Assembly (NCBI RefSeq): GCF_014905115.1
Contig: NZ_CP041235.1
Coordinates: 682,001 to 746,000 of the forward strand
DNA from: Sulfurimonas sediminis
Lineage (GTDB): Bacteria > Campylobacterota > Campylobacteria > Campylobacterales > Sulfurimonadaceae
Length of the DNA stretch: 64,000 bases
Reading direction: 5' to 3'
The position numbers and the translations under genes are program-made. The number at the start of each line of letters is the position of its first letter. The stretch's first letter is position 1. Shown one piece after another: positions 765 through 61,437 of this stretch. Below the pieces are notes generated by a model. It was not told where the DNA came from, did not search any database, and saw only the letters and a list, made by a program, of their open reading frames with translations.

Positions 765-1753
765 ATAAATTAAGCATATTATTTCTTGTTACAGGGCTGC
801 TTTTAGGCGGTTGTGTTGCAAAACAAAGAGTTGTTGTTGCAAAAAAAGAGCTTCCCTCGTGGTATCTGCAACCTCCACAGTCTAACAGTTCTACGCTTTA
901 TGCACTGGGAGAAGGTGAAAATCAGCAAGATGCCATTACGAATGCCTTGAGCTTTGCAGCCTCGACATTACATGTAACGGTTTCATCAAATTTTCGTGCA
1001 AAAACAGTTGTAAAAGAGGGAAGCCTTAACAGCTCCGAGGCAACATATATCAATGAAACACAAAGCAGTGTTGAAAAAATAAAAATAAGCGAATATGAAA
1101 TACTTCATGTAAAAAAACTCGGCTTTAAAAGATATGCGGCGCTTATAAAGGTCGATAAACAAAAGTTATTTCAAGGTTTAAAAAATGAACTAGACCAAAA
1201 ACTACAAATATACAGAAGTAAAGTCAAAAATTTACAAAAACGTGACGCACTCAAACGTCTGGTATATTATAAAAAGATGAAAAAATCATTTACATATATA
1301 CAGAATGCTCTGATAGTGATGAAAGTACTGCATAAAGGCTTTGATGATACAAAATATATAACATGGATGAATAAAGTAAATGAAGAGTATGATTATCTTC
1401 AAAAACATATAAGTTTTTGGGTAAATTCCAATGTGAAAAGTCTGGCTGAACCACTCAGAAGTGCCCTGACTAAAAAAAAGTTTATCATAAAAAATGTGAA
1501 ATCAACCATGCACTACACTGTTTTTATAAAAGCAAAAATTCAAAAAGCGACTGCCTACGGTTTTACGCTTGCCCGCAGTGAAATATCTTTTGTAACGAAA
1601 AACTATAAAGGAGAAGTGTTGGGGGAAAATGTCATACATGTAACCGGACAGTCCTCCCAGGGCTATGAAATAGCCAGGCAGAATCTTGTCAAAAAGCTTC
1701 ATTCGCTCATACAAAAAGAGGGCATTTCAAAAGTGTTAAATATTGATATTTAG
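761..1753 (+). CDS. LPP20-family outer-membrane lipoprotein
   Basis: A 330-residue protein with a signal peptide ending in a lipobox (LLLGGC, Cys18), so it should be lipidated and exported. Residues about 32-150 fit the LPP20 lipoprotein domain (SWYLQPP at the start, then ALGEGENQQDAITNALSFAA and a long SSV-rich strand region), known from the Helicobacter antigen Lpp20. The middle is Lys-rich and helical. The ATG overlaps the stop of the preceding CsgG-like gene (ATGA type), which suggests a two-gene lipoprotein unit. The precise role of LPP20 proteins is unknown; an envelope-structure role is an inference from localisation. Confidence 0.8.
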   Translation: MNKLSILFLVTGLLLGGCVAKQRVVVAKKELPSWYLQPPQSNSSTLYALGEGENQQDAITNALSFAASTLHVTVSSNFRAKTVVKEGSLNSSEATYINETQSSVEKIKISEYEILHVKKLGFKRYAALIKVDKQKLFQGLKNELDQKLQIYRSKVKNLQKRDALKRLVYYKKMKKSFTYIQNALIVMKVLHKGFDDTKYITWMNKVNEEYDYLQKHISFWVNSNVKSLAEPLRSALTKKKFIIKNVKSTMHYTVFIKAKIQKATAYGFTLARSEISFVTKNYKGEVLGENVIHVTGQSSQGYEIARQNLVKKLHSLIQKEGISKVLNIDI

Positions 1754-1822
1754 TAACCGTTTACTTCTTAGGAATATACTTACATTAATAATAAAAAGAA
1801 ATATTAATATGAGGTATAAATT

Positions 1823-2770
1823 ATGATTAATAAAATAGAAGAGGTAAAAAAAGAAGTCGCAAAAGTAGTCGTGGGACAAGAAAAAATGATAGATTCATTG
1901 CTCATCGCATTGCTGTGTGAAGGGCATATTCTTATAGAAGGTGTTCCGGGACTGGCAAAAACAACAACGGTCAATGCACTTTCAAAAGCTCTGGGGCTTG
2001 ACTTTAAACGAGCACAGTTCACACCGGATTTACTCCCTTCGGATATTTTGGGGGCAGAAATATACGACCCGCAAAACAATCAGTTTAAAATCAAAAAAGG
2101 TCCGATATTCACCAACCTTTTACTTGCAGATGAGATTAACCGTGCTCCGGCAAAAGTGCAATCTGCTTTGCTTGAAGTGATGCAGGAGAAACAGGTGACA
2201 ATCGGCGATACGACATTCAAACTTGATCTGCCATTTTTTGTCATGGCAACACAAAACCCTGTAGAACAAGAGGGTGTCTATCAGCTCCCTGAAGCACAGC
2301 TTGACAGATTTATACTCAAGCTTGTAGTTGGTTACAACACAAAAAAAGAAGAGCTTGAAATCGCAAGAAGAATCTCAAGCGGAAATTTTGAGACAATCAA
2401 TCCGGTTTTAAATAAAAGCGAACTTGAAGAGCTGAAAAAAGTTGTACGCGATATACATGTAGATGAAGAAGTACAAGAGTATATGATAGAACTGGTCAAT
2501 GCGACAAGATATCCTGAAGAGTATGGACTTGAAGATATTAAAGAGTACATTCAGTTTGGAGCTTCCCCTCGTGTGAGCATAGATATGTTTAAAGCGGTTA
2601 AAGCAATGGCATTTATGCGAGGTAAAGACTTTGTCACTCCCGTTGATGTTGCTTATGTCGTAAAAGAGTTGATGCGTCACCGTATTGTGCTTACTTATGA
2701 GGCGGAGGCAGAGGGTATTACGACAGATGAAATCATTCAAAAAGTGCTTGAAACCGTAGCGATACCATAA
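1823..2770 (+). CDS. moxR: MoxR-family AAA+ ATPase
   Basis: A 315-residue cytoplasmic AAA+ ATPase of the MoxR group, which acts as a chaperone-like partner of VWA-domain proteins. Walker A is GVPGLAKTT at residues 40-48, Walker B LLADEIN with DE at 103-104, sensor 1 ATQNP at about 142-146, and the arginine finger region EAQLDRF near 158-163. The C-terminal lid has the usual helical pattern. GAGGT at 1811-1815 is a good ribosome-binding site for the ATG. It heads a tight six-gene Bat operon (DUF58, a small membrane protein, BatA, BatB/C, BatD), the standard MoxR-Bat arrangement. Confidence 0.95.
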   Translation: MINKIEEVKKEVAKVVVGQEKMIDSLLIALLCEGHILIEGVPGLAKTTTVNALSKALGLDFKRAQFTPDLLPSDILGAEIYDPQNNQFKIKKGPIFTNLLLADEINRAPAKVQSALLEVMQEKQVTIGDTTFKLDLPFFVMATQNPVEQEGVYQLPEAQLDRFILKLVVGYNTKKEELEIARRISSGNFETINPVLNKSELEELKKVVRDIHVDEEVQEYMIELVNATRYPEEYGLEDIKEYIQFGASPRVSIDMFKAVKAMAFMRGKDFVTPVDVAYVVKELMRHRIVLTYEAEAEGITTDEIIQKVLETVAIP

Positions 2771-2780
2771 GGTCGCCACA

Positions 2781-3611: not shown

Positions 3612-4019
3612 ATGCAAAATTTACAACAAAATGAAATTCCTTTGCATGATATTAAGCCGCTTATAGAGATACATGAGTACTCCTTGTATTATCTTATCGG
3701 AGTGAGCCTGTTAGTTGTTCTGATACTTTCGGGTTTTATATATTTGGCATATAAATGGATGCAAAACAGGAAAAGATACAACAAAAGAGCAGAGCATTAC
3801 AAGAAGCTCTTTTCTCTAGATTGTTCAAATCCGAAAAAAGCGGCATATGATTTAACATTTTACGGAGCAACTTTTAAAGATGACAGTGAACGACATTTAA
3901 AAGCCTATGAAAATATGTTGGAAAAACTACAAAGATACAAATATAAAAAAAATGTAGAAGATTTTGATACAGATACTTTACATGTAATAGAGTTATACAA
4001 GGGAATGATAGATGTTTGA
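3612..4019 (+). CDS. Small single-span membrane protein of the Bat operon (DUF4381-like position)
   Basis: A 135-residue protein with one clear membrane helix at residues about 25-47 (YYLIGVSLLVVLILSGFIYL) followed by a basic, helical cytoplasmic tail. It begins at the base after the DUF58 stop and overlaps batA by 8 nt, so translational coupling is likely. In other MoxR-Bat operons this slot holds a DUF4381 protein of similar size and topology. Sequence recognition is weak and the assignment rests mostly on position and topology. It contains one copy of the TTACATGTAA palindrome (3978-3987). Confidence 0.7.
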   Translation: MQNLQQNEIPLHDIKPLIEIHEYSLYYLIGVSLLVVLILSGFIYLAYKWMQNRKRYNKRAEHYKKLFSLDCSNPKKAAYDLTFYGATFKDDSERHLKAYENMLEKLQRYKYKKNVEDFDTDTLHVIELYKGMIDV

Positions 4020-6863: not shown

Positions 6864-8283
6864 AATAATAATAATTTTTAGTCTACTTACAACGGCAATA
6901 TATGCGAAGGTTGTGGCAAGGGTATCTCCTAAGAGTGTTGTTAGCGGAGAAGTCGCAACCTATACCCTTACAATCACAGGGAGTGAAGTCAATAAACCAC
7001 TTATCAGTACAATATGCGGTAGCAATGTTCTAGGGTCAAGTTCTCAAACAAGTATTGAGATGATAAACAATGACTATAGAAAAAGCTATGTGCTGAGTTA
7101 CCAGTTTATGCCACAAAAAAGTTGTGTGATTTCACCGGTAAGTATTGAAATAGATGGAAAAACAGAGCAATCAAATAGTGTAAAAGTGACGGTAAAGCCG
7201 GCAGTACAGGATAAAAATGCCGATTTTGTACTGAATTTGATTCCCTCAAAAACAGAATTGTTTGTGGGGGAACCGTTTACACTTAACCTGGTGCTGAAAC
7301 AGAAAAAAGATGCCGAAGCCGTTGACAGTAAATTTATAGCACCGGACTTTAAAGGCTTTTGGATTAAAGGCGAATCACAGGCAACAAGAACTGAAAAAGA
7401 CGGATTTATCATCACAAAAGCAAGCTACAGACTGGCTCCGCAAAGAGAAGGAAACCTGACCATAAAACCGGCACAACTCAAAATTGCGACAAGAATCTCT
7501 TCACGGGATGTCTGGGGAGGGTTTATGCCTCAGATCAAATGGAAAAGCTATTTTTCAAATCCGGTGGAGTTACATGTAAAGCCTTTGCCTAATAATGCAA
7601 AAATAGTCGGAAACTTTACAATTGAAGCGACTGCCGACAAATTACAGATTAATCCCAATGAAGCAGTGAATGTCACTGTCAAAGTCAGAGGTGAAGGGAA
7701 TTTAGAAGATATTAAGAGTTTTAAACCCTATATACCGGGTGTAAATGTTTTTGATGAGAAAATAAGTATCAAAGGCAATACTCTGACACAAAAGTTAGCC
7801 TTTGTTTCAGATAAAGATTTTACCATTCCGCCTTTTTCACTGGCATTTTACAATTTGAAAACAAAACGGGTAGAAAAAATCTCTACACAACCGATTCCTA
7901 TCAAAGTAAACGGTGCGGTGAAAAAAACAGCATTGAAAATACAAAGAGAAGCATCTGCACAAACCACTGAACAGCCTTTACATGTAAAGAAGAGAGCAAA
8001 AGTCTATGACAAACTTTCCATTGGTATAGCTTTTGTTGCAGGAGTCATCATAGGAATATTGATTATGATGTTTGCAAAACCGGTAAAATTTTTGAAAAAA
8101 GAGAGAGTATTGAATCTCAATGATGAGAGGCTGTTGCTTATAAAACTGCTGCCGTACAAAGACAAAGATGAGGAAGTAAGAAAAGTTGTAGATATGTTGG
8201 AAGCTAATCTTTACTCTTCAAAAAAAGAGAAGATAGATAAAAAGCTTGTCAAAGAGCTGCTGAAAAAATATGATATATCCTAG
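6847..8283 (+). CDS. batD: BatD-like (BatD/DUF7939) membrane protein
   Basis: A 478-residue protein with a cleavable signal peptide at residues 1-20, a large beta-rich periplasmic part with repeated Ig-like strands (LFVGEPFTLNLVLKQ; LQINPNEAVNVTVKVRGEGN, the BatD oxygen-tolerance signature), a membrane helix at about 391-412 and a short cytoplasmic tail. It ends the MoxR-Bat operon. The stop TAG overlaps by 4 nt with the stop of convergent tyrA, so no terminator fits between them. Two TTACATGTAA palindromes lie in it (7570-7579 and 7978-7987). Confidence 0.9.
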   Translation: MKNLGKIIIIFSLLTTAIYAKVVARVSPKSVVSGEVATYTLTITGSEVNKPLISTICGSNVLGSSSQTSIEMINNDYRKSYVLSYQFMPQKSCVISPVSIEIDGKTEQSNSVKVTVKPAVQDKNADFVLNLIPSKTELFVGEPFTLNLVLKQKKDAEAVDSKFIAPDFKGFWIKGESQATRTEKDGFIITKASYRLAPQREGNLTIKPAQLKIATRISSRDVWGGFMPQIKWKSYFSNPVELHVKPLPNNAKIVGNFTIEATADKLQINPNEAVNVTVKVRGEGNLEDIKSFKPYIPGVNVFDEKISIKGNTLTQKLAFVSDKDFTIPPFSLAFYNLKTKRVEKISTQPIPIKVNGAVKKTALKIQREASAQTTEQPLHVKKRAKVYDKLSIGIAFVAGVIIGILIMMFAKPVKFLKKERVLNLNDERLLLIKLLPYKDKDEEVRKVVDMLEANLYSSKKEKIDKKLVKELLKKYDIS

Positions 8284-11467: not shown

Positions 11468-12930
11468 AATAAGACTTTAAATTTTTGATGTTCGCATTCG
11501 AGTTTTGCCACTGCCTCTTTTGAAAGATAAAGCTTTTTGGAAGAGTTTACATGTAAAGTGTTTTTCTCAAACTGCAGTTCAAAATCCAGGTTTCTTGGCC
11601 TGTGGCTTAAGAGGGCTATGCTTAAAGAGAGCAAAAAACTGAGTGTTTTCGTAACTTGTTCTTTGGGAAGCAGTTTTTTGTAGAGTTGTAAATGGGTACT
11701 CGATGGCAGTTTGTTCTTGGCGTACTTGGTCAATGTGGCAATGAGCATGATATCGTGATGTCTGAAACCAAACTCCAGGGCACTTTTTATCAAATAATAG
11801 GTATGCTTGTTTTGGGAATAAAAATGGACACTGCTTCCTGCGGGGTATAATTTTGCGGCTAAGGCAAGATTGTATCTGTATTTGTAATCTATACCGAAAT
11901 ATTCATGGGTTAAATCAAAGAGTTTTTTAGCCAATAGGCTTAAATTATTTGAAAACTGCCTGTCTTTTATATGCGAGTCTATAATGTAGCGCACGGAGGT
12001 ATTGTAATTGTGCGGAAATTTATGTTTGGAATTCCTTAGCAAATCACTCAGATACACACCCTCTCGTACACCTACACCGCTTGTAATCACTTTTGAGATA
12101 TTTATCTTTTTGATAAGTCTTTGTAAAATAAGCGTACCGGGTTTAATGACATCAAATCTGTTGCTGTTGATAAAAAGGCTTTTGAGTTCTTTGTTGCTTT
12201 TTGCATTGAGCAGTTCTTCTATAAACTCCTGCAACACAGTGACCTTAAATTCATAAGCGTGAAGTTTATTCAGCGGATACGTTTCTCTCTTCATGATGGA
12301 GCTCGATATTGCCCGAAATGTTCCGCCGATTCCGATGAGCGTTTCAACTTTCATCGCAGGAAGCATTTGTAGTTGTTCGTCAATATACCTGATGGCACCT
12401 TCTATGTCATCAGCATCAAAATAAAGCTCTTTAAGGCGCACTGTTCCAAGTTTTAGAGACAGAGGATGTGAAACATTGTTTTTGTCTATATAGGCAAGCT
12501 CAGTAGAGCCTCCTCCTATATCTATGCTGAGTGCATTCTCCTGCATTGGCAAAAGATTGGCACAGGCAATGCCTCCGAAGTAGGCTTCTTTTTCACCACT
12601 GATAATTTTTATATTGAGTTTGAGTTCTTTTTTTACTTTTTGTAAAAAATCTTTTTTATTGGGGGCATCTCTGAGTGCCGAAGTCGCAACACAAAAGAGT
12701 TTGTTCGCTTTGAAAGAGTTACTGATCTGTATAAAGTCACTCAGTGCATCAAAGGCTCTTTGCATAGGAATCTCTTGCAGAGCTCCGCCATGTTTGTAGG
12801 CATCTTCAGAAATTCTGACTTTTGACTTCTCTTCATGAAGCAAATGAAAAGCAAAACGTGATACTTTCTCATATATTACCATTCTCACTGAATTGGAGCC
12901 TATATCTATGATCGTAACACGCTTTGCCAA
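11464..12930 (-). CDS. gppA: Exopolyphosphatase / guanosine pentaphosphate phosphatase (Ppx/GppA)
   Basis: A 488-residue member of the Ppx/GppA family of the actin/hsp70 ATPase fold, hydrolysing polyphosphate or pppGpp. The phosphate loops IDIGSNSVRM (residues 8-17), SIDIGGGSTELAY near 140 and IGIGGTFRAIS near 200 are all present. The C-terminal 180 residues are helical, as in the HD-like domain of two-domain members. The start is TTG, 4 nt after the ferredoxin stop. The order gppA-ferredoxin-regulator is conserved in Helicobacter and Campylobacter. One TTACATGTAA lies at 11547-11556. Confidence 0.92.
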   Translation of the reverse strand: MAKRVTIIDIGSNSVRMVIYEKVSRFAFHLLHEEKSKVRISEDAYKHGGALQEIPMQRAFDALSDFIQISNSFKANKLFCVATSALRDAPNKKDFLQKVKKELKLNIKIISGEKEAYFGGIACANLLPMQENALSIDIGGGSTELAYIDKNNVSHPLSLKLGTVRLKELYFDADDIEGAIRYIDEQLQMLPAMKVETLIGIGGTFRAISSSIMKRETYPLNKLHAYEFKVTVLQEFIEELLNAKSNKELKSLFINSNRFDVIKPGTLILQRLIKKINISKVITSGVGVREGVYLSDLLRNSKHKFPHNYNTSVRYIIDSHIKDRQFSNNLSLLAKKLFDLTHEYFGIDYKYRYNLALAAKLYPAGSSVHFYSQNKHTYYLIKSALEFGFRHHDIMLIATLTKYAKNKLPSSTHLQLYKKLLPKEQVTKTLSFLLSLSIALLSHRPRNLDFELQFEKNTLHVNSSKKLYLSKEAVAKLECEHQKFKVLF

Positions 12931-15391: not shown

Positions 15392-15724
15392 TTAAGATTG
15401 GAAGTTTGTAATATTGCTTACACTGACCTTGCAGTCGGGTAAAATGGAGGGTTTTGTTATTTTCAGATAAAGAGTATTTATTTTCGAAAATTTATTTTTA
15501 AGCGCTCTGCTCAAATCCTGAAGCGCATCTTCAATAAGTAAATATTTTTTGTTTTGCATATCTGTTTTTATAAATTCTGCCACCTCCGCATAGTTTATAA
15601 AAACATTATCCTCAAAATCATACTCTATTGCAACATCAATAATGACTTTTTGCTCATTTTGTCTTTCATGTTCCAAAATACCGATGATACATGTAAAGTG
15701 TAACGCTTCTATATGAATTTTCAA
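15392..15724 (-). CDS. folB: Dihydroneopterin aldolase (folate biosynthesis)
   Basis: A 110-residue FolB. It converts 7,8-dihydroneopterin to 6-hydroxymethyl-dihydropterin and glycolaldehyde. Seen are the N-terminal pattern LKIHIEALHFTCIIGILEHE, with the catalytic-region Glu of the GxxxxER/Q type, and the late KITKPSILPD strand common to FolB (usually KP.A...). The best start is TTG at 15724, because an upstream extension would read through the plsY gene in another frame. It begins 1 nt after the plsY stop, so the two are coupled. folK of the same pathway is at 33.96 kb. Confidence 0.85.
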   Translation of the reverse strand: MKIHIEALHFTCIIGILEHERQNEQKVIIDVAIEYDFEDNVFINYAEVAEFIKTDMQNKKYLLIEDALQDLSRALKNKFSKINTLYLKITKPSILPDCKVSVSNITNFQS

Positions 15725-19617: not shown

Positions 19618-20286
19618 TTGAGAGCTTTTGATGATATAAAAAGTGCTAAACATATAGTAATTCAAACAGACAACATTTCATTTGCAAATGCAAATGCCCT
19701 GTATTCTTATGTATTGGCGCTGCATAAAAAAGTCTCCCTGGTAGCTATCGGACAAATTGATGAGAAGTTTTCTTTTTTACCGTGGTTTAGCCGCGTACGT
19801 GATACTGTACCAAAGCAGGCAGACTGTATAATAGAAGCAGAACCTGATGCAACAGAACTCTATTTTGCATTAAAACAAGAGGGTGTTTCTATCAATCAAA
19901 AAATGGCAACAGCACTGTTTGGGGCTCTTTTGGAATTTACACAGGGGTTTTCAAATGCAAAATGCACGGGTACGGCTTTTGTTGTGGCTGCTGAGCTTAT
20001 AGAACTTAAAGCTGAGCACCTTACATGTAAAGAGTTTTTACAAAGAAGAGAGCCCCTGTCATTGTTTCGTTTGAAATCCATACTGTATAAAAAGATGTTG
20101 CAGAGTGACAATGCGCAGGTTATGAATATGTATGTTTCAGATGAAGATTTAAAATCGAGCGGTGCAAGGTTGAAAGATGCAGAAGAGATAATGAAAGAAG
20201 TGTTGAAAACGGTACATGTAAAAGAAGTCAGGCTTTATAAAAGTGACGAAAATAACAAAATATTAAAATCAATTAAGGAAATATAA
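19618..20286 (+). CDS. DHH/NrnA-like phosphoesterase homologue with lost metal-binding motif
   Basis: A 222-residue protein from a TTG start, matching the N-terminal DHH half of NrnA-type phosphoesterases in pattern: KHIVIQTDN then ALYSYVLALHKKVSLV, and later ATELYFALKQEGVSINQKMA followed by TALFGALLEFTQGF and AAELIELKA. Where active members have a DxDG/DHH metal site, this one has DNISFANANAL and no DHH triplet, so catalysis is doubtful. Between flhB and an M23 peptidase gene it may be structural or regulatory. Function unknown. One TTACATGTAA is at 20021-20030. Confidence 0.65.
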   Translation: MRAFDDIKSAKHIVIQTDNISFANANALYSYVLALHKKVSLVAIGQIDEKFSFLPWFSRVRDTVPKQADCIIEAEPDATELYFALKQEGVSINQKMATALFGALLEFTQGFSNAKCTGTAFVVAAELIELKAEHLTCKEFLQRREPLSLFRLKSILYKKMLQSDNAQVMNMYVSDEDLKSSGARLKDAEEIMKEVLKTVHVKEVRLYKSDENNKILKSIKEI

Positions 20287-27671: not shown

Positions 27672-28675
27672 CAGATCACAGCTTTTATATGAACCTGGCC
27701 GTTGAAGAGGCTTGGAAATATCAAGGATTGACCTACCCAAACCCTGCAGTAGGCTGTACACTCAGAGGTGAACATGGTGAAATTTTAGCTGTTGAAGCAC
27801 ATCACAAAGCCGGAGAGCCGCATGCTGAAGTGAATGCTTTGAAGTCTGCATACTACAAACTGACACAAAACAAAGAAATACTGCAGCTTTTTACCTCCGA
27901 ACAAATCCATACTTTTTTACTGAAAAACCATAACAATATTTTTAAAAACTGTTCTTTGTATTCTACTCTCGAACCCTGTTCCCATGTAGGCAAAACCCCC
28001 TCATGTGCTAATCTGATTGCACAACTTGGCATAAAAAATCTTTATATCGGTGTAGAAGATTCAAATGAAACTGCGGCAAACGGCAATGCACTTTTAGTGC
28101 AGAGCGGCTTACATGTACGCTTACATGTAAGCAAAGAAAAATGTGAAGATCTGCTCTTTCCGTTTCAAAAATTTCTCAAAGAGAGATTTGTTTTTTTTAA
28201 ATGGGCACAACGACTGAACGGCACAACGGATGGAGGCATTATCAGTTCTGAGGCTTCAAGAAAAAATGTCCATGCTATGCGTAATGTATGCGATCTGCTT
28301 GTTATCGGCGGCAATACGGTCCGCTGTGACAGACCGACACTTGATGCACGCTTGGTCAACGGAAAAGCTCCCGATATTTTAATCCTTTCCCGTCAAAAAG
28401 AGTTTGACAGAAGCATTCCTCTGTTTCAGGTGCCAAATCGAAAAGTAATTATAGAGAGTGATTTTTCTTTACTGAAAAATTATAAAAATATTATGATTGA
28501 AGGCAGTGCAAAAATGTATGAGTTAAGTCGTGATATTGTTGATTATTATCTGTGTTATCTTGCTCCTGCGTTTGGCGGAGAGGAGGGATTTAAAAATATT
28601 GAGGATAAATTTGAGATTTTAAATGCAGGCAAAGAAGCAGAAGATATAATACTGTGGATGAAAAGAAGGATATGA
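27665..28675 (+). CDS. ribD: Bifunctional riboflavin deaminase-reductase RibD
   Basis: A 336-residue enzyme with deaminase (N-terminal) and pyrimidine reductase (C-terminal) domains. Zinc motifs are HAEVNAL (about residues 56-62) and PCSHVGKTPSCANLI (about 101-115). The reductase half begins KWAQRLNGTTDGGI and contains VCDLLVIGGNTVRCDRPTLD. The C-terminal domain is slightly short compared with about 360 residues in E. coli. The gene carries TTACATGTAC at 28109-28118 and TTACATGTAA at 28121-28130, in tandem. Confidence 0.93.
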   Translation: MVTDHSFYMNLAVEEAWKYQGLTYPNPAVGCTLRGEHGEILAVEAHHKAGEPHAEVNALKSAYYKLTQNKEILQLFTSEQIHTFLLKNHNNIFKNCSLYSTLEPCSHVGKTPSCANLIAQLGIKNLYIGVEDSNETAANGNALLVQSGLHVRLHVSKEKCEDLLFPFQKFLKERFVFFKWAQRLNGTTDGGIISSEASRKNVHAMRNVCDLLVIGGNTVRCDRPTLDARLVNGKAPDILILSRQKEFDRSIPLFQVPNRKVIIESDFSLLKNYKNIMIEGSAKMYELSRDIVDYYLCYLAPAFGGEEGFKNIEDKFEILNAGKEAEDIILWMKRRI

Positions 28676-33949: not shown

Positions 33950-33957
33950 GTCTTTAC

Positions 33958-34446
33958 ATGTACAGGAAACGCAAGATAAACAAAAGATTGACCTCTTTTT
34001 ACAGCTTGCATTTCCCTTATACTGCCCATGCCAAAAGTCGGCATAGATATGAAACTGTTGTAGGTGTCGGTGGAAATGTCGGAGATGTACGTCGAAGATT
34101 TGAGCATCTTCTTGTGGTATTGCAAAAAGATAAAAGAGTATCAATAGTAAAAACATCATTGATTTTAAAAAATCCTCCTTTTGGCTATACAGACCAGGAT
34201 GATTTTTTCAACTCAATACTTGTTTTAAAAACTTCAATGCAGCCAAGAGTTTTTTTACGCTTTTTACTGAGACTGGAAAAAAAATTTGGCAGAAAAAGAA
34301 CTTTTGAAAATGCACCAAGGACGCTAGATTTGGATATTATATTTTTTGATAACCGTACAATACATACACAAGATTTAATTGTGCCGCATCCTTTTTATGC
34401 ACAAAGAGAAAGTGTAATGATACCTTTGTCAGGTGTTGGTAGATGA
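33958..34446 (+). CDS. folK: Hydroxymethyl-dihydropterin pyrophosphokinase
   Basis: A 162-residue FolK. The core motif is VGVGGNVGDVRRRFEHL (about residues 37-53), with NPPFGYTDQDDFFNSIL and the magnesium-binding RTLDLDIIFF (about 121-130). There is an unusual basic N-terminal extension of about 33 residues before the first strand; an internal start may be used, but no better ATG with a ribosome-binding site is seen. folB of the same pathway is at 15.4 kb. It overlaps flhF by 4 nt. Confidence 0.88.
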   Translation: MYRKRKINKRLTSFYSLHFPYTAHAKSRHRYETVVGVGGNVGDVRRRFEHLLVVLQKDKRVSIVKTSLILKNPPFGYTDQDDFFNSILVLKTSMQPRVFLRFLLRLEKKFGRKRTFENAPRTLDLDIIFFDNRTIHTQDLIVPHPFYAQRESVMIPLSGVGR

Positions 34447-35720: not shown

Positions 35721-36595
35721 TTGGGAATCAGGCACAAAAGCTTGAAGAACTGGTTGCTTCAAATTCCCAAAAGAAAAAATCAAAAAAAACACGTTTTATC
35801 GCAATTACAAGTGGTAAAGGCGGAGTGGGCAAAAGTACTATAAGTTCAAACCTTGCCTACGCGTTGTCTCAGCAGGGTTTGAATGTGGGAATATTTGATG
35901 CAGATATAGGACTGGCCAATCTGGATGTTATGTTTAATGTAAAAATCAAAAAAAACATTTTACATGTACTCAAAGGTGAGGCGACGGTTAGCGATATTTT
36001 AATTCCTATTACCCGTAATCTTATTCTTATTCCTGGTGAGAGCGGTGATGAAATATTAAAATATTCCGATATGGCACTGTTTGACAGGTTTATGCAGGAG
36101 GCACAGGTTTTAAACAAACTTGATGTTATGATTATAGATACGGGAGCCGGGATTGGAGAGCATATTCAAATGTTTTTAAATGCGGCAGATGATGTAATTG
36201 TTGTAACAGTTCCCGATCCTGCAGCAATTACCGACGCCTATGCAACGATTAAAACAATTGCGACACTCAGAAATGATGTATTTATGATAATGAATCAGGT
36301 GAAAAATGAAAAAGAGGCTTTTGGTGTTTTTGAAAAAATTAAAAAAGTTGCCAAGGCAAATATAGGTGAAAAACTGGACCTGCAGTTGATTGGGAAAATG
36401 AATGCTGATGCGAAAGTGTCAACATCCGTAAAACAGCGCGCACTTTTTAGAAGGCTTTATCCTGCATCACAGCCGAGCAGAGACATAGATGCAATTGTGC
36501 GTAAAATTATACAAAAGCTGGAACGAAATGTGCTGGTTACATCCAATGAAAGTGGATTGTCAGGTCTGTTTAAAAGATTAATGGACCATTTTTAA
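35717..36595 (+). CDS. flhG: MinD-like ATPase FlhG
   Basis: A 292-residue P-loop ATPase limiting flagellar number. The N-terminus has NQAQKLEEL, close to the DQAxxLR activator motif that stimulates FlhF. The deviant Walker A ITSGKGGVGKSTISSNLA is at about 30-47, then FDADIGLANLDVMF and IDTGAGIG. A C-terminal amphipathic helix (GLSGLFKRLMDHF) probably targets the membrane. One TTACATGTAC-like site is at about 35960. Confidence 0.95.
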   Translation: MIGNQAQKLEELVASNSQKKKSKKTRFIAITSGKGGVGKSTISSNLAYALSQQGLNVGIFDADIGLANLDVMFNVKIKKNILHVLKGEATVSDILIPITRNLILIPGESGDEILKYSDMALFDRFMQEAQVLNKLDVMIIDTGAGIGEHIQMFLNAADDVIVVTVPDPAAITDAYATIKTIATLRNDVFMIMNQVKNEKEAFGVFEKIKKVAKANIGEKLDLQLIGKMNADAKVSTSVKQRALFRRLYPASQPSRDIDAIVRKIIQKLERNVLVTSNESGLSGLFKRLMDHF

Positions 36596-50592: not shown

Positions 50593-50595
50593 AGT

Positions 50596-52276: not shown

Positions 52277-53707
52277 ATGCAGGTATTTAAAGAGGCAAAA
52301 CCAAACATTTTGGTTGTGGGTGATTTGATGATTGATCACTACCTTTGGGGGAGTTGTGAGCGGATTTCTCCTGAGGCTCCTGTGCAGGTTGTGGATATCA
52401 ATAAAGAAACGACAGTTTTAGGCGGTGCCGGCAATGTGGTCAACAACCTAAAAGCTTTGGGTGCGAATGTCAGTGTCAGCAGTGTGATGGGTGATGATGA
52501 CAATGGCAAAGAACTTGTCAAAATGTTGCATGCTATTGATGTCAATACACAAAATCTCATTATTGAGGAAAAAAGAAAAACATCAAAAAAGAGTCGTGTG
52601 ATTGCTGTTTCCCAACAGATTTTACGATATGACAAAGAGAGTAAAAACAATATTTCCAATGAGAGTGTACAAAAGATTTTAGAATCCCTTGCTAATACAA
52701 TTGCTATGTATGATACTGTTATTTTGTCAGATTATGGCAAGGGTGTTTTAACACAGGAACTTTCACAGGGTATTATTGCGTTGGCAAAAAAACATAATGT
52801 AAAAGTACTGGTAGACCCAAAAGGAAAAGATTTTTCAAAGTATCGTGGAGCGTATCTGCTTACCCCAAACAAAAAAGAGGCGGTATTGGCAACAGGCATT
52901 GATATAAAGGATGAAACCTCTTTAAAAAAAGCACTCTTGAAACTGAAAAATGAGTGTGATTTGGATGTCTCTTTGATAACACTTTCAGAAGAGGGAATAG
53001 CAACATATGAAGAGGAAGTAAAAATCTTTCCTACCGTTGCCAAAGAAGTATTTGATGTAACAGGTGCGGGTGATACGGTGATAGCTTCTATCGCGTTTGC
53101 TCTGAGTGTCGGCAAAAGTCTTGAAGAGACAGCGGCATTTGCAAACTTGGCGGCAGGTGTCGTGGTTGGTAAAATAGGCTCGGCTACAGTAACCATTGAT
53201 GAGATAGAAGATTATGAGGCTTCTTTGCATAAAAGCACCTCAGATGCTCATATAAAAAGTTTTGAAGAGATTGCAAAAATTGTGCAAAGATATAAGAAAA
53301 ACGGTAAAAAAATAGTCTTTACAAACGGCTGTTTTGATATCTTACATGTAGGGCATGTAAAGTATTTGCAAATTGCCAAAAGCTTCGGAGATGTGCTGAT
53401 AGTTGGCCTGAATTCTGATGCTTCCGTTTCTCGTCTCAAAGGTCCGAGCCGTCCTGTAAATCCGGCAGAGGACAGAGCCTATTTGCTGGCTGCACTTGAA
53501 GCGGTCGATTTTGTCGTGCCTTTTGAAGCAGATACACCTTATGAACTGATAAAAATGATAGAGCCGGATGTGCTTGTAAAAGGCGGAGATTATGCGGGAA
53601 AAGAGGTTATAGGTACGGAATTTGCTGGCGAGTTACGATTGGTTGATTTTGTCGATGGCAAAAGTACAACAAAAACCATAGAAAAAATACAAGGAAAAAC
53701 ATGTTAA
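52277..53707 (+). CDS. hldE: Bifunctional heptose-7-phosphate kinase / heptose-1-phosphate adenylyltransferase
   Basis: A 476-residue HldE. Residues about 1-320 are a PfkB kinase: NILVVGDLMIDHYLWG at the start, GGAGNVVNNLKALG, and the catalytic loop FDVTGAGDTVIASIAFAL. Residues about 340-476 are the nucleotidyltransferase with FTNGCFDILHVGHVKYLQ (HxGH) and LNSDASVSRLKGPSRPV. It starts at the base after the hldD stop and overlaps the next gene by 7 nt. With gmhA, gmhB and hldD the ADP-heptose pathway is complete in this window. Confidence 0.96.
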   Translation: MQVFKEAKPNILVVGDLMIDHYLWGSCERISPEAPVQVVDINKETTVLGGAGNVVNNLKALGANVSVSSVMGDDDNGKELVKMLHAIDVNTQNLIIEEKRKTSKKSRVIAVSQQILRYDKESKNNISNESVQKILESLANTIAMYDTVILSDYGKGVLTQELSQGIIALAKKHNVKVLVDPKGKDFSKYRGAYLLTPNKKEAVLATGIDIKDETSLKKALLKLKNECDLDVSLITLSEEGIATYEEEVKIFPTVAKEVFDVTGAGDTVIASIAFALSVGKSLEETAAFANLAAGVVVGKIGSATVTIDEIEDYEASLHKSTSDAHIKSFEEIAKIVQRYKKNGKKIVFTNGCFDILHVGHVKYLQIAKSFGDVLIVGLNSDASVSRLKGPSRPVNPAEDRAYLLAALEAVDFVVPFEADTPYELIKMIEPDVLVKGGDYAGKEVIGTEFAGELRLVDFVDGKSTTKTIEKIQGKTC

Positions 53708-54276: not shown

Positions 54277-55247
54277 ATTTCTAACTTTTTTACAGCCTCT
54301 ATCACTTCAGAGGCTGTAATCCCTTTCATACAGTCGTGATGCTTGAGCGGGCATTCCCGCTTCATACAAGGGCTGCATTCAAGTTCATGCCTTACTATTA
54401 TACTTTTTTCATTTTTCCATTGTGAGGTCTCTTTGTACTTTGTGGGTCCGAATATAGCAACAGTCGGTACTTTATAAGCAGCAGCTACATGCATTGGTCC
54501 ACTATCATTGGTTATAAAAAGAGAACAACCGCCGATATTGGCACACAACTCCTCTATATTTGTTTTTCCTGCTAAATTTGTATAGTTGTTTACATGTAAT
54601 GCTTTGAGATTATCTTCTATCTCCTGTGCCATTTCGATCTCATTTGGTCCGCCGAATATTATAATGTCGTACTGTTTGCTAAAATAAGCCGCAACTTCTC
54701 CAAAGCGTTCAGGGTACCATCTTTTTGCACTGCCATAGGTTGCACCGGCATTGATGCCAAGTGTCGGTTTTTCAAAACTTTTTGCCTTTATGTAAAGCTT
54801 GAGAGGTGGAATTTCTTGAGTAAAATTATCTACATTCGCCATGGCAATTTGTGTGTACTGCTCTACTAAATGTTGGTTTGTTCTAATCTTTGGCGTATGT
54901 GAAAGGAGTAGTCTTGAGTGCCATGAAGCCCTTGCACAGCAGATGACAGTATTTGTAAAACGCAGTAGCAGGGTAGAGTAAATTTGATTCCGAAAGCTGA
55001 CTGCCAGATGAAAAGTTCCCAACTCTTTCGCCAGTCTGTAGGTTGCCATAAAACGTGAAGGGGCTTTTTTTGTCTCATCAACAATGGCACGTTCACATAA
55101 AGGGTGGTGTTTGAGCGCTTCTATGCTGACATAACTGCCGACAAAGGTAAACTGCGCATTGGGATATTTCAAAGCCAGAAGTTCTATGGCCGGAGTTGCC
55201 ATAATGGCATCCCCCAGCCAGTTTGGCAAAATGATTAAAATTTTCAT
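54273..55247 (-). CDS. waaF: ADP-heptose:LPS heptosyltransferase II
   Basis: A 324-residue GT9 enzyme from the ATG at 55247, adjoining the upstream stop. The N-terminus ILPNWLGDAIMATPAIELL is the WaaF signature; the nucleotide-sugar site is LFITNDSGPMHVAAAYKVPT. The Cys-rich end ELECSPCMKRECPLKHHDCM is common to WaaF proteins. It should add the second inner-core heptose using the ADP-heptose made by the genes at 46.6-53.7 kb. One TTACATGTAA is at 54590-54599. Confidence 0.92.
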   Translation of the reverse strand: MKILIILPNWLGDAIMATPAIELLALKYPNAQFTFVGSYVSIEALKHHPLCERAIVDETKKAPSRFMATYRLAKELGTFHLAVSFRNQIYSTLLLRFTNTVICCARASWHSRLLLSHTPKIRTNQHLVEQYTQIAMANVDNFTQEIPPLKLYIKAKSFEKPTLGINAGATYGSAKRWYPERFGEVAAYFSKQYDIIIFGGPNEIEMAQEIEDNLKALHVNNYTNLAGKTNIEELCANIGGCSLFITNDSGPMHVAAAYKVPTVAIFGPTKYKETSQWKNEKSIIVRHELECSPCMKRECPLKHHDCMKGITASEVIEAVKKLEI

Positions 55248-55248
55248 A

Positions 55249-56547
55249 TTAGATACGCTCGCTTGCATTGACCTGCTTTCCTACCTCTTTTGTAATGAAA
55301 ATATACAAAGGGGAGGAGCCGACAGTCAAGGTTTCGTCTTTAATTTTTTCACCGGTTTTGGAGTAAACATCAAAGAAGTCTTGATTTTGGAGGGTTGTTT
55401 CTTTGAGTGACCAGTGAATTTGAAGTATCTTGTCATTGACAAGCACCTGCATTGTGTAGTAGCCTCTTTTAATATCCATGCGTAAAAACTGGGCATTTTT
55501 AAGTGTTTGAACCATATACAGATAAGTATAAAAAGCTTCTCTTTTTTTGATTCCTTCTCTGTTGTCAACCAGACCGTAGCCCGGAGCGATGAGCTGATGC
55601 CAGGAAACAGAATCGACCTGCTGGGAAGCAAAAGCCAAAAGATAGTAGCGCAGCATATAATCCCCATAGAGTGCTTCACTGACACATTCATACTCACTTG
55701 TTGGTGCATACGGTGCCGTATTTGAGAGAGGCCAGTTCACTTCGGTTACATGTAACTCCTGTTTTGTTTTTAAAGAGAGCCATACCAGAGTGCTTAGCAG
55801 GGCAATCTTATCGCTGAGGGTAAATCCGAGCTGTGTATTTTCAGGAGCACCACGCCTGTCAACATATAAAAGTGCAGCAATGCCGTCATACCTGCATTTA
55901 CAAAAGTTAAAAAGAGTATGTACGGTAAAGTGAAATTCAAAATCTATAACACCGCTGCCTAGGAGTTTGATATCGGGAAATTCGTTTTTTTTCAAATCAT
56001 AGGCAACTTTATAAAAAGCAAGGTATTCGCGTACTGAAAAAAATCCCCATTTTGCACGGTTAATTGTTGAACCGATTTCATAGCGTGTTACGGAGGTGCC
56101 CAATTTTGTAAAGATTACATGTAAGTCATTTTTAAGGAGTTGTAAATCTTCTATATGTTCACGGTCCTGCAGGATTTTAAGTATAATTTGCTTGTCGTTG
56201 TTTTGCTTTATAAATGTCGCAAGCGCATCAAGTTGGTCCATCTCCCAGAGTTTAAAACGGACAAGGATGCTTTTTACTTCCAACTCTGCAAGTATTGTTT
56301 GTGTCTCTTGGGTATTTCTTTGCCAGTCAACACCTAAAGAGAAAAATTTTTTAGTCTCTATTTTTTTTCTCTTAACAAAGGGCATCAATAAAATACTCAA
56401 GGGAAGAATAAACAAAGAAGAGACAAGTGTGAAAAGCAAGGAAAACTTCTCTTTTTTACGCATAGATTTTTTGTATCTCTTGTCTTGCAGCAGTGCCGGT
56501 TGGTCGGAATAGTTATCCCAGATAAAAGGTTTTTTCATAAGTAGCAT
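55249..56547 (-). CDS. Membrane-anchored TIM-barrel (glycoside-hydrolase-like) protein of unknown function
   Basis: A 432-residue protein. A single membrane helix lies at about residues 35-57 (FSLLFTLVSSLFILPLSILL), then a large domain with beta-alpha pattern. YEIGSTINRAKWGFF resembles the WEIGNEP region of clan-A glycoside hydrolases but lacks the acid/base NE, while HVTEVNWPLS resembles the nucleophile strand. It could be a degenerate hydrolase or a binding protein. The start may be ATG 56547 or 56538. It is translationally joined to waaF, so a glycan-related job is inferred. Two TTACATGTAA copies are in it. Confidence 0.7.
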   Translation of the reverse strand: MLLMKKPFIWDNYSDQPALLQDKRYKKSMRKKEKFSLLFTLVSSLFILPLSILLMPFVKRKKIETKKFFSLGVDWQRNTQETQTILAELEVKSILVRFKLWEMDQLDALATFIKQNNDKQIILKILQDREHIEDLQLLKNDLHVIFTKLGTSVTRYEIGSTINRAKWGFFSVREYLAFYKVAYDLKKNEFPDIKLLGSGVIDFEFHFTVHTLFNFCKCRYDGIAALLYVDRRGAPENTQLGFTLSDKIALLSTLVWLSLKTKQELHVTEVNWPLSNTAPYAPTSEYECVSEALYGDYMLRYYLLAFASQQVDSVSWHQLIAPGYGLVDNREGIKKREAFYTYLYMVQTLKNAQFLRMDIKRGYYTMQVLVNDKILQIHWSLKETTLQNQDFFDVYSKTGEKIKDETLTVGSSPLYIFITKEVGKQVNASERI

Positions 56548-56779: not shown

Positions 56780-57745
56780 ATGCGAATATTGGTAGTAAGA
56801 ACAGACAAGCTAGGCGATTTTATAACGGCATTGCCGGCTATGTACGCTCTCAAACAGCATAATCCCAAAAATAAAATCATAGCACTTGTCGCTCCAATGA
56901 ACAAAGATTTGGCATTTACATGTAATTTTATTGATGAGGTTATTGTAGATGATGGGGAAAGCTCTGTTTTTTCGCTTGCTAAAAAGTTAAAAAAAGCAAA
57001 TATTGATGTTTCAATCACACTTTTTTCAAATACAAGGGTGGCATTTGCACAATTTTTAGCAGGAATACAGACTAGAATAGCCCCTGCAACAAAAATAGCA
57101 CAGATTTTTTATAATAAGCGAATTAAACAGAGACGCTCTGAAGTGAAAATGGCTGAGTTTGAATACAATCTTGCACTGACTCAAACCCTTTTTCCTGACA
57201 TTCAACGGCAGTATCCAAAACCACTGCTTCAATTTGATGATGCCAAAAAGGAGTATAAAAAGTTTTGTGACGAGTATAAGATAACAAAAGATGTTATAGC
57301 TTTTCATGTCGGTTTTGGCGGTTCTTCAGATGCCAACTGGAATTTGGATGAGTATGAGATACTAATTCGTGAAGCCTTACATGTAAACAAGTACAGCGTA
57401 GTATTAACTTTTGGTCCAGATGAAAAAAACTTGAAAGAAGAGATGCAAAAGCGTTTGCAAGATACTGGTGCTATTTTTTATCTCTCAAATGAAGGCATCG
57501 TAAATTTTGCAAAACTTATCAGCAGTTTTAAACTTTTTGTCTCTACTTCTACAGGTACCTATCATTTAGCCTCTTTGGTTGGAACACCGACAATGACTTT
57601 TTTCGGTGATTCAAAGTTTGCAAGTGCCTCGCGATGGAAAAGTATTGGGGATGAAAAACTGCAAAAACATTATATGCTGCCGAGTGATAAAGCAAAGCGT
57701 GTAGAGATGTTTGAAGCAGTGAAACAGGATTTGTTAAATGTGTAA
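56780..57745 (+). CDS. Glycosyltransferase family 9 (heptosyltransferase-like)
   Basis: A 321-residue GT9 protein. It begins MRILVVRTDKLGDFITALPA, the GT9 start, and has the acceptor/donor motif FVSTSTGTYHLASLVGTPTM near residue 255, where the usual DSG is STG. The exact acceptor is unknown; an LPS-core heptose or similar sugar is likely. Two TTACATGTAA copies lie inside (56916-56925, 57377-57386). It converges on the GT2 gene with a hairpin between. Confidence 0.88.
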   Translation: MRILVVRTDKLGDFITALPAMYALKQHNPKNKIIALVAPMNKDLAFTCNFIDEVIVDDGESSVFSLAKKLKKANIDVSITLFSNTRVAFAQFLAGIQTRIAPATKIAQIFYNKRIKQRRSEVKMAEFEYNLALTQTLFPDIQRQYPKPLLQFDDAKKEYKKFCDEYKITKDVIAFHVGFGGSSDANWNLDEYEILIREALHVNKYSVVLTFGPDEKNLKEEMQKRLQDTGAIFYLSNEGIVNFAKLISSFKLFVSTSTGTYHLASLVGTPTMTFFGDSKFASASRWKSIGDEKLQKHYMLPSDKAKRVEMFEAVKQDLLNV

Positions 57746-57766
57746 AAATATGCAGGCATGCACCAG

Positions 57767-59284: not shown

Positions 59285-59306
59285 ATATTTCTCATAAATA
59301 ATTTTG

Positions 59307-59325: not shown

Positions 59326-59339
59326 CAAAAAAAGGGATT

Positions 59340-60368
59340 ATGTTGAAGTTAAATTTTAGAAGAGGCAGTGCCTATGCTTCAAAATATGCGAGAGAATATT
59401 TAAAAGATAAAAAACCAAAAGATATAAAAAGTATAACCGTCATCCGACATGCGGCAATCGGTGATTTTATGAATATACGCCCTTTTCTGATTGAACTTCG
59501 CAAATTTTTTCCTAATGCCAAAATAACTTTAAGTGTTATAAAGCATTACATGTACGGAATTCCTGAAGATTTAATAGATGAGTTACATGTAATGAGCAGA
59601 TATAAAGAAGATGGCTCTAAGACAGGAATATTGAGAAGAATCAAAGAAGCAAAAAAGCTTCCTCCCCAAGATATTATATTTGATTTGACTGATAGCACAA
59701 TCACTCTTTTGCTTGTGTTTTTGTCTCAGGCAAAATTAAAAATAGGCTACCCGTATAGAACTGTTAGAAGAATGTTTTTTGATATAGCAACACTTAGAAG
59801 TGATTTTGTTGTGGAGGCTGTTTCTGTAGAACACATGCTCAATATTTTAGGAGCAAAAACAGAGTTTCCGCTTCATTATGGATTGGAAAAAATATATCCA
59901 AAAACAGAGGATCTTAAACAAATTGTTTATTTTGCTGGTGCTTCAACAAAAAGCAAGTGTTGGGAAGAAGATAAGTTTCGGGAGTTAATTGAAAAGATGT
60001 CTCAAAACTATCAGGATTATGATCATGTTATTCTTCAGGGTATCGGCAAAGATGAAAAATTTTATGAAATTTATGAACCGCTTAAAGAGAGAAAAAACAT
60101 AAAACTTCAAGAAGTTATGCCTATAGAAGAAGTAATGCAGTTCTTGGCAAACAGCCGATGCCTTGTTTCTAATGACACAGGTGTGCGAAATATGGGCATT
60201 GCATTGGAAATTCCGACAATAGGCATCTTTTTTCATATACCGCCGTTTCGGTATTGGCCACGCGAAGAAAAACACGACTGTGTTTTTAATATTGAATATA
60301 CCTCACCGAAAGTTGCGGATGTGTACGCTGCTACAAAACAACTCATAGACAAACTGTATGAAAAATAA
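59340..60368 (+). CDS. Glycosyltransferase family 9 (second heptosyltransferase-like)
   Basis: A 342-residue GT9 protein from the ATG at 59340, which has AAAGGG 4-9 nt upstream. The core start is SITVIRHAAIGDFMNIRPFL, and the C-terminal motif is CLVSNDTGVRNMGIALEIPT followed by GIFF, a DTG variant of the family DSG. Clear relation to WaaC/WaaF/WaaQ-type enzymes, with acceptor unknown. One TTACATGTAA is at 59583-59592. It overlaps the next gene by 11 nt. Confidence 0.87.
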   Translation: MLKLNFRRGSAYASKYAREYLKDKKPKDIKSITVIRHAAIGDFMNIRPFLIELRKFFPNAKITLSVIKHYMYGIPEDLIDELHVMSRYKEDGSKTGILRRIKEAKKLPPQDIIFDLTDSTITLLLVFLSQAKLKIGYPYRTVRRMFFDIATLRSDFVVEAVSVEHMLNILGAKTEFPLHYGLEKIYPKTEDLKQIVYFAGASTKSKCWEEDKFRELIEKMSQNYQDYDHVILQGIGKDEKFYEIYEPLKERKNIKLQEVMPIEEVMQFLANSRCLVSNDTGVRNMGIALEIPTIGIFFHIPPFRYWPREEKHDCVFNIEYTSPKVADVYAATKQLIDKLYEK

Positions 60369-61437
60369 CAATATTTTAGAGTTGTGTCTGGCACATGGAC
60401 TGGGTGGGCTTGAGATGTTTGTGGCGAGTTGTTATGAAGAATTTTCTAAAAAGGGTAGATGTAAAGTGGTTGTAGCACCACAAAGCAAACTGGATAACTA
60501 TCTTGAAATAAATGATAAATTTAGTCTCAAAAGAAATAAGTTTTTTCCATTTATACCGGCTTTGCAACTGGCAAAATATATAGATGAAAATGAGATTGAT
60601 ATAGTACATTTTCACTGGAGCAAAGATATCGTAACAGCTGTTTTGGCAAAAATATTGAGTAGGAAAAAACCAAGATTAGTGCAGAGTCGACATATGGGGA
60701 TGACCCGATTTAAAGATGATTTTTACCATAAATGGCTTTATAAAAATATTGATATGATACATGCTGTAACCCAGCAGGTACAAAAGCAGCTTGAAAAGTT
60801 CATTCCTGCAGAAGTGAGACCAGAGATTGCGATGGTACATCTTGGTGTAAAAGCTCCAAAGATAGATACCAATAAAGTGGCTGAATTGCGACAAAAGTAT
60901 CAACTTCAAGATACTTTTGTTGTAGGAATTGTCGGGAGGATAGAAAAAGGCAAAGGGCAGTATAAGGTTTTAGAAGCTGTTGCTGATTTACAAGAGGAAA
61001 ATATAAAAGCAGTCATTGTGGGAGCTTTTATGGATGATAAATATGCACAGGAGTTGCAGACGTATGTAAAAAAATTGGGTATAGAACAACAAGTGATATT
61101 TACCGGTTTTACAAAAGATGTAGATGTACATATGCAACTTTTTGATGTAAATGTGCTTGCTACAGAAAACGAAACATTTGGTCTTGTAGTGATTGAAGCG
61201 ATGGCAAATAAAATTCCGGTTATAGCTACATGTAAAGGGGGACCGTTGGAAATTATAGATGATGGTGTGGATGGGCTGTTGTTTGATGGGAGTGTAGATG
61301 ATTTGGGAGAGAAAATCCGACTTTTACATAATGATTTACATGTAAAAGAACGAATTGCTCAAGCAGCTTTAAAAAAAGTGAAAGAGAAGTTTGATTTTAC
61401 TGCACAGCTTGACAAACTCTACAGAGTAATGAAATGA
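60358..61437 (+). CDS. Family 4 glycosyltransferase
   Basis: A 359-residue GT-B enzyme. The start LELCLAHGLGGLEMFVAS and the donor domain motifs VVGIVGRIEKGKGQYKVLEA and ENETFGLVVIEAMANKIPVI (the EX7E motif) are typical of GT4. It should transfer a sugar from a nucleotide donor in LPS or O-chain assembly; the sugar is unknown. One exact palindrome copy is at 61336-61345, plus a close variant near 61227. It overlaps the acyltransferase gene by 4 nt. Confidence 0.92.
   Translation: MKNNNILELCLAHGLGGLEMFVASCYEEFSKKGRCKVVVAPQSKLDNYLEINDKFSLKRNKFFPFIPALQLAKYIDENEIDIVHFHWSKDIVTAVLAKILSRKKPRLVQSRHMGMTRFKDDFYHKWLYKNIDMIHAVTQQVQKQLEKFIPAEVRPEIAMVHLGVKAPKIDTNKVAELRQKYQLQDTFVVGIVGRIEKGKGQYKVLEAVADLQEENIKAVIVGAFMDDKYAQELQTYVKKLGIEQQVIFTGFTKDVDVHMQLFDVNVLATENETFGLVVIEAMANKIPVIATCKGGPLEIIDDGVDGLLFDGSVDDLGEKIRLLHNDLHVKERIAQAALKKVKEKFDFTAQLDKLYRVMK

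Follow-up and report, generated by a model that had tools for sequence, protein, structure and literature searches.

Why does a 64-kb stretch of a Sulfurimonas sediminis chromosome carry fifteen exact copies of one 10-bp palindrome, TTACATGTAA? The stretch, hereafter called the window, comprises positions 682001-746000 of the source genome (G000), a single contig of 2,320,257 bases. All 15 copies listed in a preliminary description of the window were confirmed at their coordinates. We find that a palindromic watermark with the core TACATGTA and lineage-specific flanks runs through the whole genome, TTACATGTAA being its local dialect, and that something appears to recognise this core in the cells and to maintain it at silent positions as well. 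Tentatively, we read the motif as a palindromic, methylation-independent watermark of the DNA-uptake type that has diverged into dialects.

The excess is not limited to the window. The whole genome of 2.32 Mb holds 425 exact copies, compared to 3 of a control pattern read backwards, and 737 copies of the core, compared to 32 of its reversed control, which corresponds to 183 and 318 copies per Mb, respectively. In the window, whose A+T content was measured as 62.3% rather than the earlier estimate of about 65%, Markov models of orders 0 to 4 predict 0.20, 0.13, 0.13, 0.08 and 0.25 exact copies, and the suspected over-representation therefore stands at these orders; at orders 5, 6 and 7, in models that increasingly contain TTACATGTAA itself, the expectation is 2.3, 10.1 and 14.8 copies. 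When up to one mismatch was allowed, 25 matches were counted in the window, whereas 100 dinucleotide shuffles averaged 4.17 and never exceeded 14, and TTACATGTAA tops the excess ranking of all window 10-mers with at least eight two-strand occurrences. Across 464 kb of G000, 95 copies were found where about 0.6 were expected (order 3; two-strand counts halved), and TACATGTA and TTACATGTAA show the largest excess among the 8-mers and 10-mers, respectively, with at least six two-strand occurrences. The sites in the window are the following, with the strand of the surrounding open reading frame (ORF) given in brackets:

968..977, copy 1 of TTACATGTAA, in ORF 761-1753 (+)
3978..3987, copy 2 of TTACATGTAA, in ORF 3612-4019 (+)
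7570..7579, copy 3 of TTACATGTAA, in ORF 6847-8283 (+)
7978..7987, copy 4 of TTACATGTAA, in ORF 6847-8283 (+), within the 14-bp palindrome CTTTACATGTAAAG
11547..11556, copy 5 of TTACATGTAA, in ORF 11464-12930 (-)
20021..20030, copy 6 of TTACATGTAA, in ORF 19618-20286 (+)
28121..28130, copy 7 of TTACATGTAA, in ORF 27665-28675 (+)
30290..30299, copy 8 of TTACATGTAA, in ORF 29423-30676 (+)
54590..54599, copy 9 of TTACATGTAA, in ORF 54273-55268 (-)
55746..55755, copy 10 of TTACATGTAA, in ORF 55249-56547 (-)
56115..56124, copy 11 of TTACATGTAA, in ORF 55249-56547 (-)
56916..56925, copy 12 of TTACATGTAA, in ORF 56780-57745 (+), heptosyltransferase-like, below curated cut-offs
57377..57386, copy 13 of TTACATGTAA, in the same heptosyltransferase-like ORF 56780-57745 (+), below curated cut-offs
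59583..59592, copy 14 of TTACATGTAA, in ORF 59304-60368 (+), heptosyltransferase-like, below curated cut-offs
61336..61345, copy 15 of TTACATGTAA, in ORF 60358-61437 (+), glycosyltransferase-like, below curated cut-offs
1634..1643, near-match ATACATGTAA, 8-mer core intact
2454..2461, core TACATGTA, flanks TA/GA
15687..15696, near-match ATACATGTAA, core intact
20212..20221, near-match GTACATGTAA, core intact
28109..28118, near-match TTACATGTAC, core intact; the relatives G055 and G032 have CTACATGTAG at the aligned place
33182..33189, core TACATGTA, flanks TC/CG
33954..33963, near-match TTACATGTAC, core intact
35960..35969, near-match TTACATGTAC, core intact
36752, start of a further near-match to TTACATGTAA with one mismatch
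53342..53351, near-match TTACATGTAG, core intact
59546..59555, near-match TTACATGTAC, core intact
61226..61235, near-match CTACATGTAA, core intact

Most of these near-matches had been listed before; two of them start at 15687 and 53342 instead of 15688 and 53343, and those at 35960 and 36752 are additions. It is correct that all 15 exact copies lie in coding sequence (ORFs of at least 100 aa), but confinement to genes is no special property of the motif: in a 400-kb sample of G000, for which genes were called by a simple ORF calling of our own, 70 of the 76 copies are wholly within genes because genes cover 92% of the DNA. Likewise, the absence of copies from the ribosomal RNA operon is uninformative, as about 1.3 copies would be expected there.

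Maintenance of the motif was assessed by aligning the 400 kb of G000 to the relative G011, at about 91% nucleotide identity (the BamA protein of G000 is 96% identical to that of G011 and 86% to that of G038, whose BamA contig matches that of a metagenome-assembled genome named Sulfurimonas autotrophica). Seven of the 76 copies could not be aligned. The remaining 69 are intact in G011 in 60 cases, whereas the corresponding rates are 0.414 for flanking 10-mers, 0.508 for all 10-mers and 0.567 for 10-mers of the same G+C content (P ~1e-14 against the flanking and ~1e-7 against the same-G+C words). In retention, the motif ranks fourth of 134 10-mers with at least 20 aligned copies, with three A/T-rich words ahead of it. 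Substitutions were found at 11 of 690 motif bases (1.6%), compared to 10.4% in the flanks, and the directly adjoining bases are unprotected (12 and 16 changes in 69), so that conservation ends sharply at the motif edges, which argues against the copying of a longer element. Among codons whose first two bases were unchanged, the third base differed in 9 of 267 codons within the core or motif, compared to 45.4 expected from the same codons elsewhere (P ~6e-11). The silent positions are thus nearly frozen, which indicates that the DNA, and not the protein alone, is conserved. These results bear out the earlier proposal that something keeps the sites and that amino-acid need alone is insufficient, all the more since two reading frames are used: the 70 genic copies are read as TTA-CAT-GTA in 46 cases and as xTT-ACA-TGT-AAx in 24, never in the frame containing TAA, with LHV and TC as the dominant encoded peptides.

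The strict part of the motif is the core, which occurs in the 400 kb at 14.5 times the expectation of an order-2 model, compared to 0.4-1.4 times for its one-mismatch variants. The outer bases are graded, with T in 73% of the half-sites followed by a weaker T and C (consensus CTTTACATGTAAAG), and the information content fades across 14-16 bp around the core. Core density follows weak protein constraint: it is 0.66 per kb in the quartile of shared genes with the lowest identity, 0.39 and 0.28 in the next two and 0.21 in the best-conserved one. In genes aligned over less than 30% to G011 (65 gene calls; genes aligned over 30-70% were omitted), 10 copies in 50.6 kb amount to a density of 0.198 per kb, significantly below the least-conserved quartile (P 0.0002). 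The spacing of the cores is near random, with a coefficient of variation of 1.15 compared to 0.85-1.16 in 95% of random sets, a pattern more in keeping with accumulation than with a chromosomal role that requires set spacing. Since 2 of 27 aligned G000 cores are present in the motif-poor genome G031, many of the G000 sites probably arose by substitution after the two lineages split. In comparisons between dialects, G055 and G032 each have 4 of 10 aligned cores in common with G000, a figure to which we give no weight because some of these sites may reflect protein constraint.

In order to describe the distribution, a genome was regarded as enriched if it held at least 100 cores and at least three times its reversed control. 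This applies to 14 of 60 Sulfurimonas genomes (G000, G011, G044, G034, G033, G038, G006, G055, G032, G047, G004, G040, G017 and G046), with G021 as a borderline case (113 cores, control 49) and at most 62 cores and 2.6 times the control in the remainder; presence and absence thus vary within the genus. In a wider survey of 248 genomes of the order Campylobacterales, 342-1727 cores were counted in 18 of the 20 genomes of a family designated f20 (controls 18-74), the exceptions being G096 with 28 cores and G135 with 109 compared to 50. This family is probably Sulfurospirillaceae because named Sulfurospirillum plasmids carry the motif; its members G228 and G250 are presumably S. multivorans-like. 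In the family f1, to which G000 belongs, 5 of 22 genomes are over the threshold (G000, G182, G237, G040 and, from another genus, G159) and G215 is borderline (99 cores, control 29), whereas the other 206 genomes reach at most 45 cores, with a few small counts above the control (e.g. G211, 15 compared to 0). Several motif-poor Campylobacterales hold fewer copies of TACATGTA than of the reversed control (e.g. G001, 8 compared to 31), as if the word were avoided.

The flanks differ by lineage. TTACATGTAA accounts for a share of 0.57-0.63 of the cores in G000, G011, G044 and G034, of 0.46 in G038, of 0.35 in G033 and of 0.07-0.20 in nine other enriched or borderline Sulfurimonas genomes (0.07-0.10 in G055, G032 and G006). 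Dialects were called from sampled stretches, one of which (G277) was excluded for unreadable bases. In this sample, (T)CTACATGTAG(A) leads in G055 and G032, C and T flanks are mixed in G006 in a Y..R form, outer mismatches are tolerated in G237, T stands on both sides of 10 of 19 cores in G285, and the f20 genomes G228 and G250 share the consensus GCTTTACATGTAAAGC, position -1 being T in 97% of the half-sites. In the alignment of these two genomes, 14 of 16 cores persist (flanks 0.63), whereas G228 and G135 have 0 of 11 in common (flanks 0.22); the near-loss in G135 indicates that the function is dispensable. Contig C1 of G184 (22.6 kb; L233-L234), without a single core in a genome that holds 1110, is perhaps a recently acquired element.

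On a midpoint-rooted BamA tree of 36 rows, four of them ungrouped, two changes separate 11 high from 21 low rows, a number as low as this being reached in 0 of 500 shuffles. Two is a lower bound because the tree holds 26 of the 60 genomes of the genus and is midpoint-rooted; the enriched genomes G004, G017 and G047, many motif-poor distant genomes and further BamA loci are absent from it, and seven of the low rows were scored from stretches of 13.9-22.2 kb with 0-1 cores instead of from whole-genome counts. In the first high group (G006, G055, G032, G040 and G046), which may include motif-poor genomes as well, flanks other than T predominate. The second, the six-genome clade of the window, is nested among motif-poor rows and carries a T dialect that resembles the one of f20. 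On these rows, a loss followed by a regain, or two origins, would account for the pattern with two changes, and retention with separate losses would need more. High copy number and dialects that follow phylogeny, as in DNA uptake sequences (DUS), are thus observed on this partial tree. A far-reaching scenario, which we consider rather unlikely, would be a methylation-independent palindromic self-DNA code with species dialects in Campylobacterota, whose fullest form is GCTTTACATGTAAAGC in Sulfurospirillaceae; the S. autotrophica-like clade would have lost this code together with its Sulfurimonas relatives, regained it as a Sulfurospirillum-like dialect when the reader gene was acquired horizontally, and then gained hundreds of copies by point mutation inside genes.

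The core is also found on plasmids of Sulfurospirillum, with 14 copies in the 39.9 kb of pSDCE1, 13 in the 38.0 kb of the related pSDIE1 and 34 in 200.0 of the 200.7 kb of pSulSP, 11 of which are counted twice because an identical 45-kb block is present twice; by stretch, the density ranges from 80 to 351 per Mb. Other plasmids gave 2 cores in 45 kb (S. aquatica), 1 and 0 in 50 kb each (two from Sulfuricurvum kujiense), 0 in 50 kb (Aliarcobacter), these four being examined in part, and 1 in the complete 35.3 kb of a Nitratiruptor plasmid. The motif-poor genome G009 appears to be S. aquatica, because its C2 site matches the S. aquatica plasmid. Five stretches of viral contigs with the 16-mer GCTTTACATGTAAAGC hold 1-2 cores each, from which we draw no conclusion on phages. 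On pSDCE1, four copies of the core cluster in a D12 adenine methylase gene (L249:1918-2461), and five lie in and around a LexA-like S24 repressor gene (L249:20494-21355), one of them between the repressor gene and dinB; a second S24-dinB pair of this plasmid has a copy at the same place (39644). The repressor gave only weak partial matches in the DNA compared, and an SOS operator, which this arrangement suggested, was rejected as out of keeping with the hundreds of copies in coding DNA.

A cognate methylase, as proposed in the preliminary description, is unsupported. Profile searches in Sulfurimonas with the Pfam families PF01555, PF02086, PF00145, PF02384 and PF07669 (in 18, 18, 18, 10 and 21 genomes, respectively; in f20, PF07669 alone was searched) revealed no family that tracks the motif, and three of the five are absent from G000, G011 or both; a methyltransferase from these families was therefore rejected as the maintaining factor. 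PF01555 and PF02086 (D12) are absent from G000, G011, G044 and G034, and PF00145 (C5) is present in G000 and G044 and absent from G011 and G034; with completeness at 80% for G044 and 73% for G034, it is G000 and G011 that carry the argument. PF02384 gave four matches in G011 and one, with an internal stop, in G000. With PF07669, G000 has a strong match, and two of the PF02384 loci of G011 match more weakly; a weak frame of 232-237 aa common to both genomes occurs in the motif-poor G031 and G009 as well. The G000 enzyme at 1810 kb had no close match in the G011 DNA compared; of the four G011 enzymes found with PF02384, the two that were compared had none in the DNA examined from G000 (the best pair reached 18% across 90 aa). 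A family of D12 enzymes that is 57-64% identical to a Sulfurospirillum plasmid enzyme was also considered and rejected, as it occurs in G033, G038, G006, G004 and G237 but also in the motif-poor G041 and G051.

We favour the uptake-type watermark, though with less than even confidence, on account of the accumulation under weak constraint, the near-random spacing, the dialects, the ease of loss, the occurrence on resident plasmids and the fact that a palindromic uptake mark is already known in this order. A two-fold symmetric putative DNA reader in the natural-transformation pathway would prefer fragments carrying the motif, copies would be spread and protected by uptake and subsequent recombination at any place where the encoded protein tolerates them, and every lineage would have a flank dialect of its own. 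Both the existence of such a reader and its action in uptake, as opposed to inside the cell, are inferred; its gene was not found. Several observations weigh against this. The profile of the neisserial DUS receptor, ComP_DUS (PF16732), scored over the cut-off in 0 of 36 genomes, with four weak matches at E up to 1, in a search whose sensitivity is not established because 0 of 14 control genomes scored over the cut-off either. ComEC, the sole competence gene tested, is present in 46 of 46 genomes, so that uptake may occur, but does not separate motif-bearing from motif-poor ones. The low density in genes without a match in G011 would follow from any slow accumulation and, compared to all well-aligned genes, is weakly significant (P 0.04). 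ComP-type uptake sequences are not known to be palindromic, and the perfect symmetry would suit an intracellular homodimer no less well. Finally, among the papers listed by the literature searches, no report of natural transformation in Sulfurimonas or Sulfurospirillum was seen.

Such a homodimeric DNA-binding protein acting in nucleoid organisation, segregation, repair or recombination, whose sites are kept as binding helps the chromosome, would account well for the perfect two-fold symmetry, for the information that fades over 14-16 bp (up to GCTTTACATGTAAAGC in G228, with its T at -1) and for the strong conservation at the DNA level. The symmetry places this explanation close behind the uptake-type watermark, but near-random spacing, cores on Sulfurospirillum plasmids, a near-total loss as in G135 and the failure to find a candidate protein make us regard it as somewhat unlikely. 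More doubtful is a highly iterated palindrome (HIP) in Elhai's sense, made and kept by a modification or repair system with a methyltransferase or another enzyme that escaped our searches. The look is the same as in the HIP report (PMC4390886), i.e. a palindrome with a strict core, mainly outer-base variation and alternative words in relatives, and PF02384 and PF07669 matched in both G000 and G011. However, the families absent from these genomes, the enzymes without counterpart in the DNA compared and the PF07669 frame shared with motif-poor genomes speak against it; according to the same source, every HIP genome has a predicted fitting methyltransferase, and densities are 1000-2000 per Mb, above that of the present AT-rich word. 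A passive outcome of mutation bias, of codon or peptide preference, or of a spreading mobile repeat is highly improbable. The dominance of two peptides and one gene with three copies in a 15-bp tandem duplication would fit it, but two frames are used, the sharp edges leave no longer element to be copied, one-mismatch core variants are not enriched in G000, and silent changes are far scarcer within the motif than in the same codons outside, which speaks against a passive origin unless a site-specific repair bias, i.e. the HIP case, is at work.

Chi and the FtsK-orienting polar sequences (KOPS) are polar and orientation-biased, whereas TTACATGTAA, a perfect palindrome, has no orientation and no such polarity. 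The earlier likening of the motif to HIP1 of cyanobacteria or to uptake sequences is apt. Among other known systems, HIP1, GCGATCGC, with its alternates (Elhai 2015, PMC4390886) is likewise a short over-represented palindrome with a strict centre and other words in some relatives, and TTACATGTAA, too, lies far above the Markov expectation genome-wide. HIPs are GC-rich and have a fitting methyltransferase predicted in every genome, whereas our motif is AT-rich (2 of 10 bases G+C) and less dense, its dialects share one 8-bp core, and no methyltransferase of the five families accompanies it across Sulfurimonas. Neisserial DUS, which occur as dialects in Neisseriaceae, are similar in their very high copy number, constant core and lineage-specific forms (PMC3630211) but differ from the present motif, whose function is putative, in that it is a perfect palindrome and no ComP_DUS scored over the cut-off. 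In Campylobacter jejuni, a member of the same order, uptake is restricted to DNA that CtsM has methylated at the palindrome RAATTY, a proposed discrimination of self DNA (PMC10046745, citing Beauchamp 2017). That mark is a methylated 6-mer, whereas here the 8-10-mer itself is enriched, and an orphan adenine methylase of this type was not found among PF01555 and PF02086 in G000 and G011. Repetitive extragenic palindromes (REPs) and bacterial interspersed mosaic elements (BIMEs) also reach hundreds of palindromic copies, but REPs are extragenic (PMC2817692), whereas 70 of 76 copies here are genic and conservation ends at the motif edges. By these comparisons, the motif cannot be counted among HIPs with a methyltransferase or among ComP-type uptake sequences; it would work like one of them. 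Its hundreds of genic copies, their protection from mutation and the differing spelling in related lineages suggest a self-recognition mark read by a putative protein.

If the uptake code is real, it would be the first palindromic uptake signal known to us that needs no methylation, and a practical key for DNA transfer into deep-sea sulfur oxidisers and organohalide respirers. HIPs outside cyanobacteria without a tracking methyltransferase would contradict the rule that methylation creates them. The dialects, the nearly motif-free close relative G135 and the nested occurrence offer natural comparisons for finding the reader. No earlier report of the motif was seen among the papers listed by the literature searches.

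Some minor observations concern local arrays and other words. Three copies with a 15-bp period lie in one ORF at L058:9932-9971 (genome positions 369932-369971; peptide LHVKGLHVKGLHV). The ORF reads like an alanine racemase gene and the array like a tandem duplication inside the coding sequence, for which reason an operator array was rejected. Downstream of this ORF (L058:10380-10500) and in other stretches of G000, a dispersed repeat with GGACTGAAGTCC-like and GGTACTTCAGTGCCGG sequences is found; the 12-mer GTACTTCAGTGC occurs 17 times in the 464 kb. The non-palindromic words CTCTTTTG/CAAAAGAG are present at 2-3 times the Markov expectation in both G000 and G012. In G009 (L090-L094; probably Sulfurimonas aquatica), TAAACGCG/CGCGTTTA reach about nine times the expectation and are possibly a different repeated word of a motif-poor species.

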